From Flavobacteriales bacterium (GTDB lineage: Bacteria; Bacteroidota; Bacteroidia; Flavobacteriales_D; Parvicellaceae): DNA of 54,682 bases. The notes under the pieces were generated by a model. That model worked only from the letters and a program-made list of their open reading frames with translations, was not told the DNA's origin and did not search any database. Every line of letters starts with the position of its first letter. The first letter of the stretch is position 1. The stretch is taken from NCBI GenBank assembly GCA_029251405.1, contig JAQXDK010000045.1:1-54682 (forward strand), given 5' to 3'. The translations under genes and the position numbers were made by a program. Shown here piece after piece: positions 36,955-44,559 of this stretch.

Positions 36955-38111
36955 AAATAAACAAGAAAAAATATTACTCCAAAACCTCTAGTTTGATAAT
37001 AACTCTATTGATATTAGAAATTATTTTTTGGACTATTACACTTTCTGTATACCAATATCTAATATTAAATGTTAGAGAATTTAGATTAGAACATCCGAAG
37101 GTGTTGTGGCTTTTAGTTTTAGTTTTTATTTTAAATATTATTTGGCTAAAAAATAAAATTTGGAAGAAAAACGCCGTTAATAAGTTTGCAAAGTTAAATA
37201 CCCTGAGCAGAATATTTAATGGGTTTTCGAATAATAGGTCAATCTATAAATACATACTATTTAGAACTGCTATTGGCTTACTAATTATAGCTGCATCCAA
37301 TCCTCAATATGGTGAAAATGAAAGAACTGTTGCATCAAAAGGTATCGATGTAATGGTTGCACTAGACATAAGTAAAAGTATGATGGCTGAAGATATCGTT
37401 GAAGGATACAACCGACTCGATATTGCAAAATTAGCAATAGGTAAATTAATTAACGAACTTAGAGGAGATCATGTTGGAATTGTAGTATTTGCTGGTGAAG
37501 CTTACAAGCAATTACCTCTAACACCTGACTACCAAGTAGCTAAATTGTTTCTTAAAAGTATTGGAACCGATATGATTTCTTCTCAAGGAACTGATATAGG
37601 AAATGCTATAGAATTAAGCATGAGCTCTTTTAACGAAGAAAGAAAAACTAACAAAGCAATTGTTATAATTTCCGATGGAGAAGACCATGAAGAGCAGGCA
37701 GTTGAAGCAGCAAGAAGAGCTAGTGATGATGGAGTAGTTATTTGTACAGTAGGAATGGGTTCCGATAAAGGTGTCCCTATTCCTATAATTAGAAATGGGA
37801 GAAAAATAGGTATTAAAAAAGATAAAGATGAATCTACTGTTTTAACAAAACTTAATGAAAAAAATTTAATTGATATTGCTCAAGCAGGTAGTGGTAGTTA
37901 CACAAAAACTAAAGGATTAAATTTAAATTTAAGAACCATTATAGACAGGATAAATAAAATAGAAAAAACTACTCTCAAAAAAGACAGATACTCTACTTAC
38001 GATGACCAATTTCAATGGTTTTTATTTCCTGCACTAATCTTATTACTTTTAGATCTTGTAATTTTTGAGAAAAGAGGCAAAATTGATGAAAAAATAACAT
38101 TATTTAAATGA
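36951..38111 (+). CDS. batB: BatB, VWA-domain membrane protein
   Basis: 386 residues, laid out like BatA: two N-terminal membrane segments, a VWA domain with MIDAS DVMVALDISKSMMAED (about 135) and AIVIISDGEDHEEQA, and a C-terminal membrane helix (FLFPALILLLLDLVIF). It probably forms a complex with BatA and MoxR. It overlaps batC by four bases (ATGA). Confidence 0.93.
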   Translation: MKINKKKYYSKTSSLIITLLILEIIFWTITLSVYQYLILNVREFRLEHPKVLWLLVLVFILNIIWLKNKIWKKNAVNKFAKLNTLSRIFNGFSNNRSIYKYILFRTAIGLLIIAASNPQYGENERTVASKGIDVMVALDISKSMMAEDIVEGYNRLDIAKLAIGKLINELRGDHVGIVVFAGEAYKQLPLTPDYQVAKLFLKSIGTDMISSQGTDIGNAIELSMSSFNEERKTNKAIVIISDGEDHEEQAVEAARRASDDGVVICTVGMGSDKGVPIPIIRNGRKIGIKKDKDESTVLTKLNEKNLIDIAQAGSGSYTKTKGLNLNLRTIIDRINKIEKTTLKKDRYSTYDDQFQWFLFPALILLLLDLVIFEKRGKIDEKITLFK

Positions 38112-38905
38112 GATTATCACTAAACATTAGGCTTTTAATAACTACTACAATCCTTAGTATGAGTATGTATTCTCAAACTATTGAAAGTAAACTTGAGTTA
38201 AAAAAAGGAAACGAGTTTTTTCTAAAAGGAGATTTCGAGAAATCATCTAATAGCTATAACAATTCACTTGACGCAGATGATAACAACCTTAATTCAATAT
38301 TTAATAGCGGTAATTCATCATTAATGATGGGAGAATATGAAGAAGCTAGAGAATATTTTAAAACTTACATTTCAAAATCATCAGACAAATTAGACAAATC
38401 GTTAGCTCATTATAATTTAGGGAATTCATTTCTCAAGCAGCACCAAAAAGAGGTAAATGAAGGCGGACAAAATTCAGCTGAGCACTTACAAAATGCAGTT
38501 AACGAGTACAAACAATCTTTAAGACACAACCCTAAAGATAGTGATGCTAGGTACAATTTATCATACGCCATGAAGCTGATGCAAAACCAGCAAAATAAAG
38601 ACAAAGATCAACAAGACAAAGATCAACAAGATAAAGATCAAAAAGATAAAGACCAACAAGACAAAGACCAACAAGACAAAGACCAACAAGACAAAGACCA
38701 ACAAGACAAAGACCAACAAGACAAAGATCAAAAAGACAAAGATCAAAAAGAACAAGATCAAAAAAAGAAAAACCAGCAAAAAGAATCTAAAGAACAGGCT
38801 TTAAAAAATTTAGATGCAATAAATGGTGATGAAGAAAAGGTTCTACTAAAAGTCAATAGAAAAAAAGGAGATCAGAAAAAGAAGAGTAAAACTAAAGACT
38901 GGTAA
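38108..38905 (+). CDS. batC: BatC, TPR protein with Lys/Asp/Gln-rich repeat tail
   Basis: 265 residues. A signal peptide (about 1-22), TPR repeats at about 25-150 (LELKKGNEFFLKGDFEKSS, KSLAHYNLGNSFLKQHQKE), then a low-complexity region of 11 five-residue units of the form DKDQQ or DKDQK (residues 165-219), and a basic tail. The TPR part is the standard BatC; the long charged repeat is coded by a 15-bp tandem repeat and could vary in length between strains. Same operon as batB and batD. Confidence 0.92.
   Translation: MRLSLNIRLLITTTILSMSMYSQTIESKLELKKGNEFFLKGDFEKSSNSYNNSLDADDNNLNSIFNSGNSSLMMGEYEEAREYFKTYISKSSDKLDKSLAHYNLGNSFLKQHQKEVNEGGQNSAEHLQNAVNEYKQSLRHNPKDSDARYNLSYAMKLMQNQQNKDKDQQDKDQQDKDQKDKDQQDKDQQDKDQQDKDQQDKDQQDKDQKDKDQKEQDQKKKNQQKESKEQALKNLDAINGDEEKVLLKVNRKKGDQKKKSKTKDW
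38600..38764 (+). repeat. 15-bp tandem repeat inside batC, 11 units
   Basis: Eleven head-to-tail units of the form GACAAAGAYCAACAA, each five codons, remaining in frame. Units 5-8 (38660-38719) are identical; the outer ones differ at one to three positions (GAT for GAC, AAA for CAA). Copy-number change would alter BatC length without a frameshift. Confidence 0.95.
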
Positions 38906-42073: not shown

Positions 42074-42622
42074 ATGAAAAACATTTTATTACTATTTATA
42101 ATTTTATTGGGCTCAAAGTTCATGGGGCAAAGCTTTACTATCCAACAGAACAATATGACTTTGTCAGGACTATCAACTAGTGGTGATTTTTCTCAAGGTA
42201 CTTATCTTGATGCTTTAGCTAACGATTCACTGACATGGAGTATTGTTTCAGATTCTTTACCTTCTATATGGAATTTTTCACTTTGTTTTCCAAACTGTTA
42301 TCCTATAGGTTCTAATAGTGGTAATCTAATAATTACAAATGGAGATAGTTATTATTTGAACTGTCACATTTATCCCAATAATACAACTGGAGAAGGTTAC
42401 ATTACCATGGAAATAACAAACAGTTCAGGAGTCACAGAACAAGTTACGTGGCATGGAGTTGCCGGAAGCGTAGGTATTGTTAATGAATTTTTTAAAACAA
42501 GTAGTGAAATAAAAAACATCTATAACCTAAATGGTCAAATTGTCCAGGAGTTTCAAAATAATAGAATCTACATAGTTCAACTAAAAGATAACAGTGTTGT
42601 GAAAACTTTTATTAATAATTAG
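42074..42622 (+). CDS. Small secreted protein with a T9SS-like C-terminal tail
   Basis: 182 residues. Signal peptide (about 1-19, cut before QSFTIQQ), a beta-rich body with two Cys pairs (LCFPNCYP; LNCH), and a C-terminal tail (IYNLNGQIVQEFQNNRIYIV, then KTFINN) like type A T9SS sorting signals. No further family is recognised. It begins four bases after nth but looks like an unrelated passenger; its end overlaps the convergent di-haem peroxidase gene by 11 bases. Confidence 0.8.
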   Translation: MKNILLLFIILLGSKFMGQSFTIQQNNMTLSGLSTSGDFSQGTYLDALANDSLTWSIVSDSLPSIWNFSLCFPNCYPIGSNSGNLIITNGDSYYLNCHIYPNNTTGEGYITMEITNSSGVTEQVTWHGVAGSVGIVNEFFKTSSEIKNIYNLNGQIVQEFQNNRIYIVQLKDNSVVKTFINN

Positions 42623-43598
42623 TAATAAAAGAACTGTCTGTTAAACATTTTAAAAAAGAAACTAAATCTTCTTTTTCAGATTGGCTTATTTCAAAAGGTT
42701 TTATCCAGTCATGCTTGTTTTTATGATTCATACCACCCTTGGAATAATGTTCTATAACTTCTTCTAAAGACTCCAAACTTCCATTATGCATATATGGACC
42801 AGTGACTTCAATATTTCTTAATGTAGGGACTTTAAAACAACCGTTGTCATTTTCATTTAAAGTAACTCTCATTTTACCCATATCTTGGTAGTTCTCGTAT
42901 AAACCGTTATTAACAATTTGACCATTTGAGAAATTAAAACCACTATGACATTTTACACAATTCAATTTCTTAAAAAGTTCCATTCCATTTATTTCGGACG
43001 TTGATAAAGCAGCAGAATTATTTTGAAAATAAAATTGATCGTACCTAGAGTTCCCACTTATTAAAGTTCTTTCAAAACTAGCAATTGACTGGGTAATTAA
43101 TTTTGGAGTTGGTATTGCACCAAAAGCCTTTTGAAATAGATCTAAATATGCTGGATTTTTTTTTAGTCTTTCGGTTAGTAATAAAACATGAAAATCAAAT
43201 TCATTTTTTTCATGAATCGGAACCAACGCTTGCTCTTCTAAAGAAGGATTTACACCGTCCCTTAAAAAGTTTTTATTGTAAACAATATTAGTGAGTGTAG
43301 GGGTGTTTCTAGTTACCGTTCTTTTTTTAATCCCTTCTGCAGTTCTTAAGCCGTCTGTGTATGCATATTTTGGAATGTGACAAGAAGCACATGAAACTGA
43401 AGAATCTCTAGACAAAAGAGGATCAAAAAATAATTTTTTTCCAAGATCAATTTTTACTTTACTGAGTTTATTTTCAGCTGGTATTTCTGGTTTAGGGAAC
43501 CCAGCAGGGACAGATAAATAAAAGTTTTTATCTGTATCGAATGAAAAAAAGAAACATATTAGAAATAGAAAAACAAGATTATTTTTATTGGACAACAT
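42612..43598 (-). CDS. Di-haem cytochrome c peroxidase (MauG/MbnH-like)
   Basis: 328 residues with a signal peptide or anchor (about 1-25) and two haem-c sites: CASCH (70-74) and CVKCH (214-218). Distal features of the family are visible, such as FDPLLSRDSSVSC, RNTPTLTNIVYNKNF, PTLRNIEVTGPYMHNGS and the ALVPIHEKNEF loop. The family includes classical peroxidases and MauG-type enzymes that oxidise protein side chains. It overlaps, by 14 bases, the upstream MbnP-like gene, and methanotroph MbnH is such a di-haem enzyme, so an MbnH-like role in modifying its partner is likely. Confidence 0.9.
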   Translation of the reverse strand: MLSNKNNLVFLFLICFFFSFDTDKNFYLSVPAGFPKPEIPAENKLSKVKIDLGKKLFFDPLLSRDSSVSCASCHIPKYAYTDGLRTAEGIKKRTVTRNTPTLTNIVYNKNFLRDGVNPSLEEQALVPIHEKNEFDFHVLLLTERLKKNPAYLDLFQKAFGAIPTPKLITQSIASFERTLISGNSRYDQFYFQNNSAALSTSEINGMELFKKLNCVKCHSGFNFSNGQIVNNGLYENYQDMGKMRVTLNENDNGCFKVPTLRNIEVTGPYMHNGSLESLEEVIEHYSKGGMNHKNKHDWIKPFEISQSEKEDLVSFLKCLTDSSFITNY

Positions 43599-44559
43599 TA
43601 AACTTTTTATAAATCATCTCTAATCCATTATCTATGGTTACAATATAAATTCCAGTTGCAAACTCTTTAAGAGGAAAATAACTACCCTCACTAGGCAAAT
43701 TATTTTCGTACAATTTAACTTTTCCGTTTATATCTGTAATTTTTAAATTCACTTTTTGGTTGGAATTAAAATGATAATTTATGGTTGGGGCAAATGCTAA
43801 AGTGTAATCCATAAAAATGTAATTATTATTTTTTGGAGATTCAATTGAGGAGGAAATTATATTATATGATTCAAAAACATTCATAGAATATGAATTATTA
43901 CACATTAGTAGGTTGTTGGTGCTGCTACTGTGGTCAACTCCAACTGTTGATAAATTAAGTCCTGAAAGAAACCTTTCGGCATTAACTTTTAAGTCAATAT
44001 AAATAGTATCGTTAGAATTTACTGGGTTAACATTTATTTGATCAATAGGACTTAACATTTGATCTCCTAAAGCGTGTAATTCGAATGGTGTATCTGGATT
44101 ATTGTCATTATTTGCATCCGTATATCCATTAGTAGTAACAAAAAAGTATCCTGAAGGCCATCCCCAATCCATTGGAGGACTTTTAGGTCCCAAAGGGTGG
44201 GAACCTGTATAATTCGTTGTATTTCCACTGTTTGCAATTTGATCCACACCTACATCAAAACGTATAGCCTCAACATTAGATACGCTAAAATCACCTAAAT
44301 AGTAGTTGGTTATGTGGCCACTAGCTAAAACATAAGTGTTAGGTAAAAGTGAAATTTGACCGCCGTCATATTCAATTTCAAAACCCGATAAATAATATTG
44401 TAATCTGGTGTAATAGTTTTGTACACCATCTAAATCAAAATTTTCATTGTAGTGAAATGTAGAGTCATTTAAAAAGTGATTTAACCGTAGAACAATCTTT
44501 TTTTGTGCACTAACATTAATAAATAAAGTAACTAATAGAAATAAAATGATTTTTTTCAT
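43585..44559 (-). CDS. MbnP-like copper-binding-type protein with a T9SS-like tail
   Basis: 324 residues. Signal peptide (about 1-18), then an MbnP-type beta-domain from RLNHFLNDSTFHYNENFDLD to about 230, including TRLQYYLSGFEIEYDGG, VEAIRFDVGVD and PMDWGWPSGYFFVTTNGY with Trp132 and Trp134. The last 80 residues (KVNLKITDINGKVKLYENNL, then GIYIVTIDNGLEMIYKKF) are a type A T9SS sorting domain, so the mature protein should reach the cell surface. In methanotrophs MbnP binds copper after MbnH converts a Trp to kynurenine. Here the pair has no methanobactin genes near it. Confidence 0.82.
   Translation of the reverse strand: MKKIILFLLVTLFINVSAQKKIVLRLNHFLNDSTFHYNENFDLDGVQNYYTRLQYYLSGFEIEYDGGQISLLPNTYVLASGHITNYYLGDFSVSNVEAIRFDVGVDQIANSGNTTNYTGSHPLGPKSPPMDWGWPSGYFFVTTNGYTDANNDNNPDTPFELHALGDQMLSPIDQINVNPVNSNDTIYIDLKVNAERFLSGLNLSTVGVDHSSSTNNLLMCNNSYSMNVFESYNIISSSIESPKNNNYIFMDYTLAFAPTINYHFNSNQKVNLKITDINGKVKLYENNLPSEGSYFPLKEFATGIYIVTIDNGLEMIYKKFNVVQ

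Follow-up and report, generated by a model that had tools for sequence, protein, structure and literature searches.

An MbnP-like protein with a type IX secretion tail beside an MbnH-like di-haem protein in a Flavobacteriales genome

The gene pair and its products

The window studied here, by which we mean the whole stretch of 54,682 nucleotides at positions 1 to 54,682 of contig JAQXDK010000045.1 (GenBank assembly GCA_029251405.1), belongs to a Flavobacteriales bacterium that is probably marine. Its minus strand carries a gene for an MbnP-family protein ending in a sorting domain of the type IX secretion system (T9SS), followed by a gene for a di-haem protein resembling MbnH and MauG (Table 1). 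Both open reading frames (ORFs) were found where a first-pass annotation of the DNA had put them, and they share 14 bases (43585-43598), as it had said. We consider the pair as a candidate system for the oxidation of a tryptophan (Trp) to kynurenine. The genome holds two MbnP and two MbnH matches, which are paired; the second pair lies on another contig, and its di-haem enzyme (L035:8471-9475), next to an MbnP of its own, contains the Trp between the haems that the enzyme in the window lacks.

Table 1. Features of the gene pair, with positions in the window
Feature	Position	Strand	Basis
MbnP-family protein with type A T9SS C-terminal domain, 324 amino acids	43585..44559	-	PF20243, PF18962, TIGR04183, model
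Putative Sec signal peptide, residues 1-18	44506..44559	-	read from the sequence by eye
MbnP domain, residues 20-206	43942..44502	-	PF20243
MxWxW motif, M130-D-W132-G-W134	44158..44172	-	hhalign to Methylocystis MbnP
W132, predicted kynurenine position	44164-44166	-	first Trp of WxW
H162, inferred equivalent of the copper His ligand	44074..44076	-	conservation and profile alignment
T9SS C-terminal domain, about residues 246-324	43588..43824	-	PF18962, TIGR04183, structural match
MbnH/MauG-like di-haem protein, 328 amino acids	42612..43598	-	TIGR04039, PF03150, 1iqc
First CxxCH, C70-A-S-C-H74	43377..43391	-	sequence; 124/124 MbnH ORFs
Arg113 at inter-haem Trp position	43260..43262	-	aligned to W of FWDG in 1iqc
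Glu133, distal acid-base Glu position	43200..43202	-	123/124, one gap
Second CxxCH, C214-V-K-C-H218	42945..42959	-	sequence; 123/124, one gap
Tyr285, MauG-type axial Tyr position	42744..42746	-	phmmer, ETM of 1iqc aligned to EHY; Tyr in 116/124

The first protein matched PF20243 with 68.1 bits against a cut-off of 27 (E 1.2e-18), which bears out the MbnP-type domain read earlier from the letters, and the same profile was positive in 0 of 14 control genomes. The structural prediction that had been proposed as a check points the same way. A model built on a 56-sequence alignment (mean predicted local distance difference test score, 91.4) resembled the solved MbnP 7l6g_C of Methylosinus trichosporium (Z 16.1 over 199 residues, root mean square deviation 3.0, 14% identity), and Foldseek matched it to 7l6g_B at 3.4e-06. 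Among the solved structures listed, 7l6g was the one that covered the MbnP domain, and the next (Z 9.3) lay on the tail. Against the solved structures, phmmer with the single sequence found no MbnP, whereas a profile query found one (E 4e-4).

The tail itself, at residues 260-320, scored narrowly above the cut-offs of both PF18962 (28.4 bits against 27) and TIGR04183 (28.3 against 23), and the T9SS-like sorting domain of the earlier reading is thus retained. In the model, residues 246-324 resembled the T9SS C-terminal domains of translocon complexes (8glk_D, Z 9.2; 8gl6_D, 8.6), the match to 8glk_D, the C-terminal domain of NucA bound to SprA, being tied with many fibronectin type III domains. 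The genome encodes SprA (TIGR04189, 2408 bits), the one T9SS translocon component searched for, together with 84 T9SS-tail matches, 78 of them over the cut-off. At the other end of the protein, signal cleavage would probably leave Gln19 as the mature N-terminus according to the Bacteroidetes Q-rule (PMC10653852), and Gln19 was invariant in 7 close sequences. A crude lipobox pattern, which gives some false hits, recognised no lipobox in this MbnP.

The second protein has the two CxxCH haem sites expected from the first reading. It matched PF03150 (CCP_MauG) with 167 bits, its best NCBIfam model was that of MbnH (TIGR04039, 270.8 bits) with MauG behind at 225.8, and the genome encodes a cytochrome c assembly protein (PF01578, 131.8 bits). 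In peroxidases, a Met at the position of Tyr285 is a haem ligand. Arg113 sits 20 residues before Glu133, which is the spacing of the inter-haem Trp in Trp-bearing relatives, and the residue at the Glu133 position has a distal acid-base role (PMC6405878). It is quite improbable that this is an ordinary peroxidase reducing hydrogen peroxide, next to which an unrelated surface protein of the MbnP family lies by chance. The top-scoring solved relatives are indeed ordinary peroxidases (1iqc, E 1.8e-42), but the axial position is Tyr and not Met, the highest-scoring NCBIfam model is TIGR04039, and MbnH genes accompany MbnP genes in many families, as described below.

Relatives of the pair

Of 40 genomes related to that of the window, which was counted among them, 35 contained PF20243, as did 78 of 296 genomes of the phylum that were at least 90% complete (77 over the family cut-off). 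From the kin we took 62 of 65 MbnP places in 60 stretches, the window being the 63rd and two short fragments being left out, and from the phylum 41 of 102 places in 40 stretches, 20 of which were chosen for a long frame and 20 mostly for the best scores. Adding the window itself and two plasmid loci gave a survey of 106 MbnP and 124 MbnH ORFs, and because the set is enriched in tailed proteins its proportions are not frequencies. An MbnH was counted as in range when it lay on the same strand with its start between -120 and +3500 bases of the end of the MbnP. By this definition 100 of the 106 MbnPs had an MbnH in range; the six others were at contig ends (L046, L055, L088), overlapped their MbnH beyond the limit (L103, L119) or had none (L079).

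Long C-terminal extensions were seen in 23 of the 106 MbnPs. In the first set, length and profile could be compared, with 14 of 63 proteins long-tailed and 14 of 56 members matching Por_Secre_tail. The crude pattern found a lipobox in 64 of the 83 untailed proteins versus 4 of the 23 tailed ones. In the MbnP tree, all tailed proteins lay to the same side of one branch (support 80), although they came from many families, and for this reason the T9SS tail looks like an old swap of anchors, in which it took the place of a lipid anchor.

The tailed proteins also differ in their partners. A Trp-less MbnH was in range of 20 of the 21 tailed MbnPs having any MbnH, against 21 of 79 untailed ones (Fisher 8e-9), and in the sole exception (L067) the MbnH is at a contig end. 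We considered whether tail and Trp-less MbnH had become associated repeatedly, and rejected it: with the tail on one side of one branch, the link counts as one event, and the tree gives one independent pair. The inter-haem Trp was missing in 40 of the 124 MbnHs, and 35 of these 40 fell within a 36-member set (SH-like approximate likelihood ratio support 99) that holds one Trp-bearing sequence. When overlaps of up to 500 bases were allowed, 21 Trp-less MbnHs could be assigned to tailed MbnPs and all 21 keep Tyr285, whereas the 18 assigned to untailed MbnPs have it in 11 cases, with Phe or Lys in 6 and one sequence cut. What appears unusual from these alignments is that the enzymes of the tailed MbnPs belong to a set that has lost the inter-haem Trp and yet keeps the other haem residues.

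It is unlikely, in our opinion, that W132 of the tailed protein is modified by the genome's other di-haem enzyme, the Trp-containing one, with the Trp-less protein acting as an accessory subunit. This idea draws on the 24 of 106 MbnPs (9 tailed, 15 untailed) that have an MbnH of each kind, Trp-less and Trp-containing, in range, and on the window's genome having the Trp type only at its second locus, next to an MbnP of its own. Against it, Tyr285 is kept throughout the Trp-less enzymes of tailed MbnPs, a genus member (G006, 85% complete) showed the tailed MbnP alone, and BthA, described below, has Ser at the inter-haem position and still forms bis-Fe(IV). We prefer to regard the adjacent Trp-less enzyme as the one that may act on W132.

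Tandem MbnH genes, with and without the inter-haem Trp, stand behind one MbnP in L050, L051, L053, L054, L057, L060, L104, L109 and others; perhaps they are two subunits or catalyse two oxidation steps. In the plasmid loci L095 and L096, the Trp of the MbnH is 23 and not 20 residues before the Glu.

Seventeen loci of named relatives came from Crocinitomicaceae, other Flavobacteriales or Bacteroidetes, nearly all of them metagenome or single-cell assemblies; the names suggest marine samples, and several of the genomes were already in the survey. They contained 13 MbnHs, some of which duplicate survey sequences, and the 12 readable at position 113 all lack Trp (5 Arg, 7 Leu).

The predicted target tryptophan and the presumed copper site

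The alignment of the window MbnP with that of Methylocystis parvus (hhalign, E 6.5e-10) pairs M130, W132, W134 and H162 with the Met, the first Trp, the second Trp and the His of the latter. The Methylocystis segment opposite M130-W134 reads GMAWNW; this MbnP is close to 7l6g, which has the same letters there. In work by Manesis from 2021, MbnH reportedly oxidises the first Trp of the WxW, and Cu(I) is said to be held by His, Met and solvent with the kynurenine about 2.9 Å away. Because W132 is aligned to this first Trp, the reported target of MbnH, we take it rather than W134 as the candidate, and kynurenine at W132 is likely the best reading of the motif. The first-pass annotation had named both residues; W134 was considered as well and is less likely by the profile alignment.

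The motif is strongly conserved, with Trp at the W132 position in 106 of 106 MbnPs and at the W134 position in 105, and the four positions read MWWH in 89. H162 was the sole His among columns conserved at 75% or more in the first set, where it occurred in 60 of 63. Among 118 non-redundant MbnPs, His stood at this position in 83 of the 84 untailed proteins with a letter there (two further ones were gapped) and in 16 of 16 tailed proteins outside the window's sub-clade. Within the sub-clade, however, His was found in 8 of 16 proteins, the others having Arg (5), Gln (2) or Asn (1), while M130, D131, W132 and W134 were each present in 16 of 16. Of the results obtained here, this is the one that the known system would have led us to expect least: the Trp presumed to be the enzyme's target stays constant, and the residue presumed to bind copper varies. 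Three other His residues, H28, H121 and H210, were likewise invariant in the sub-clade, and they occurred in 9, 10 and 15 of the 16 other tailed MbnPs.

Copper binding is thus not assured and may not be a conserved function, because H162 drifts to Arg, Gln or Asn in half of the sub-clade, and whether the window MbnP binds copper in the canonical way is uncertain even though it retains H162. The surface-displayed, oxidised copper protein imagined at first keeps its family, fold, tail and WxW Trp, but its copper has become less sure. It is possible, though we would not favour it, that W132 (or W132 with W134) is oxidised and no canonical Cu(I) site is formed, either because H28, H121 or H210 takes the part of H162 in a remodelled site or because the oxidised Trp has another role, e.g. 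surface redox chemistry. The fixed motif and fixed His residues beside a half-lost H162, and the repeated changes of the latter on the tree, would fit this idea. On the other hand, the window and half of the sub-clade keep H162, its role as a ligand is itself deduced from alignment, and the three His residues are common outside the sub-clade and hence not new there. A broader and somewhat less probable proposal is that, in the sub-clade at least, Trp oxidation is conserved but not the canonical copper site, so that the Trp-less MbnH would modify the invariant MxWxW and the oxidised Trp would serve a new or remodelled surface site, with the tailed MbnPs as a phylum-wide lineage. We still regard copper(I) binding as the leading candidate for the job of the window MbnP.

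The proposed module

The two-gene module as a whole is best explained, with a probability that we put at roughly 0.62, by oxidation of W132 by the MbnH-like enzyme in the periplasm, export by the T9SS and a task involving copper(I). From the family, the fold, the tail, the coupling of the genes, the aligned motif, SprA and the cytochrome c assembly protein, we infer the oxidation and its site, the order and place of the steps, and copper binding. The di-haem enzyme, using hydrogen peroxide, would oxidise W132 to kynurenine, and this step would take place in the periplasm on the folded MbnP. The T9SS would then take the protein, now modified, through the outer membrane by means of its C-terminal domain, and the protein might stay on the surface or be released, with the tail standing in for the lipid anchor usual in untailed Bacteroidota MbnPs. 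Its most likely job, at the cell surface or close to it, would be to bind copper(I) beside the kynurenine with the help of M130 and H162.

Several observations weigh against this explanation. The MbnP scored 20.4 bits with TIGR04052, the MbnP_like_WxW equivalog, far under the cut-off of 140, and its partner did not reach the 362.85 of TIGR04039; the two consequently resemble MbnP and MbnH in a broad sense but do not belong to the curated equivalogs. The search of the MauG/MbnH families suggested in the first-pass annotation hence confirmed the family but not the equivalog, and it brought to light the replacement of the inter-haem Trp by Arg113. This replacement does not rule out Trp oxidation, because BthA has Ser at the same place and the bis-Fe(IV) state still forms, according to excerpts of PMC6405878. 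The residue numbers in those excerpts did not fit the solved chain 6e1c by eye, and we claim no residue equivalence to BthA. One tailed MbnP (L079) had no MbnH at all within a stretch of 14 kb. Among the genes adjoining the pair, of which just two were profile-scanned (an S9 peptidase and a protein with no family match), we recognised none for copper. Finally, when two truncated sequences are added to the sub-clade, 9 of its 18 members have Arg, Gln or Asn in place of H162, and the best tree, made with this column left out, has 5 changes there, at least 4 of which are forced by its starred branches.

For the family at large, the link to copper receives some support from gene neighbourhoods. 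A SCO1 cluster (one member profile-scanned) lies near MbnP in 4 loci elsewhere in the phylum, and MbnPH-like genes of other bacteria are in operons with ScoC, PcuAC and CopC in the part of PMC9426467 that deals with them. These associations support the link for the family and not for the locus in the window.

Relation to known systems

The absence of methanobactin genes, remarked on in the first-pass annotation, was considered as a possible surprise and rejected as one. It holds for MbnB-like proteins, because no protein matching MbnB_TglH_ChrH (PF05114) was found in the genome, which is 97% complete; PF05114 was the methanobactin family searched for. However, a pair of this kind without methanobactin genes is ordinary and common, and has been known since 2013: MbnP and MbnH are conserved far beyond the methanobactin producers, as stated in excerpts of PMC3621798. 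Nor can surface display of a kynurenine-copper protein be called new, since CorA is found at the surface and CorB, its di-haem partner, mainly in the periplasm (PMC3912023, in part). The same applies to modification in the periplasm followed by T9SS export. Cargoes fold in the periplasm ahead of this export (PMC11285876, in part), and T9SS cargo bears an N-terminal pyroglutamate made by a periplasmic enzyme anchored in the inner membrane (PMC10653852, in part). With these precedents for both steps, the claim of a new ordering fails. What is new here, judging from the sequences, is the form taken by an MbnP/MbnH-type pair, which combines T9SS sorting with a partner lacking the inter-haem Trp. 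A literature search of limited coverage found no paper that has MbnP together with 'type IX secretion'.

The pair of Methylosinus trichosporium is similar in the MbnP fold, the MxWxW, the aligned His and the adjacent di-haem enzyme, which we take to be of the Tyr type like the partner in the window. In contrast to it, the window has a T9SS tail, its genome has no MbnB-like protein, its proteins stay below the TIGR cut-offs, and its MbnP has one Cys where the name given to 7l6g implies four. Untailed Bacteroidota MbnPs with an MbnH, among them the other pair found in this genome, share the domain, the WxW-type Trp pair and the gene coupling, but mostly have a lipobox in place of the T9SS tail and a Trp-containing MbnH.

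Surface copper proteins with a Trp-derived kynurenine and a co-transcribed di-haem partner are also CorA/CorB of Methylomicrobium album and MopE/SACCP of Methylococcus capsulatus; according to excerpts of PMC3912023, CorA and MopE differ in using two His residues and in having no T9SS, and MbnP is not markedly similar to either in sequence, as a passage of PMC3621798 has it. MauG and BthA resemble the partner enzyme in their His/Tyr-ligated haem, and BthA also in lacking the inter-haem Trp, which is present in MauG and the peroxidases; the substrate of MauG is a different one, the precursor of methylamine dehydrogenase (PMC6405878, in part).

If our reading is right, the Bacteroidota have linked a Trp-oxidising pair of the MbnP/MbnH kind to a second route of export. 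The natural series of H162 versus Arg, Gln or Asn, and of Trp versus Trp-less MbnH, could be used to tell Trp oxidation and copper binding apart, and the latter series could also test the need for the inter-haem Trp. The names of the carriers suggest marine Flavobacteriales, and if copper is indeed bound, the pair would matter for the way in which copper is handled in the sea.

Neighbouring genes and further observations

Beyond the two scanned neighbours lie what we take, from the sequence, to be a Bat-type operon and an endonuclease III-like gene. One protein of this putative operon carries a long DKDQQ-type repeat (38108-38905, plus strand). In L063 and L071, from another genus of the same family, the MbnP beside the same Bat-like and endonuclease-like neighbours is untailed and comes with a Trp-type MbnH, as if one type of pair had replaced the other in place. 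Convergent to the pair is a gene for a probably exported protein of 182 amino acids (42074-42622, plus strand), which is kept beside the pair in four loci of the same genus and whose T9SS-tail score of 12.3 bits is below the threshold.

Elsewhere in the survey, a protein of about 300 amino acids with an N-terminal CDVCGC-type motif is encoded on the MbnP/MbnH strand in L122 (5692-6588) and 12 other loci, in all 13 beside an untailed MbnP. The blast cluster containing the L122 protein spans 26 loci, and the one member scanned had no Pfam match; possibly it is an outer-membrane partner. A YHYH-domain cluster occurs on the same strand as the pair in L042 (1692-3041) and 11 other loci, mostly with short MbnPs, and the one member scanned was T9SS-tailed.

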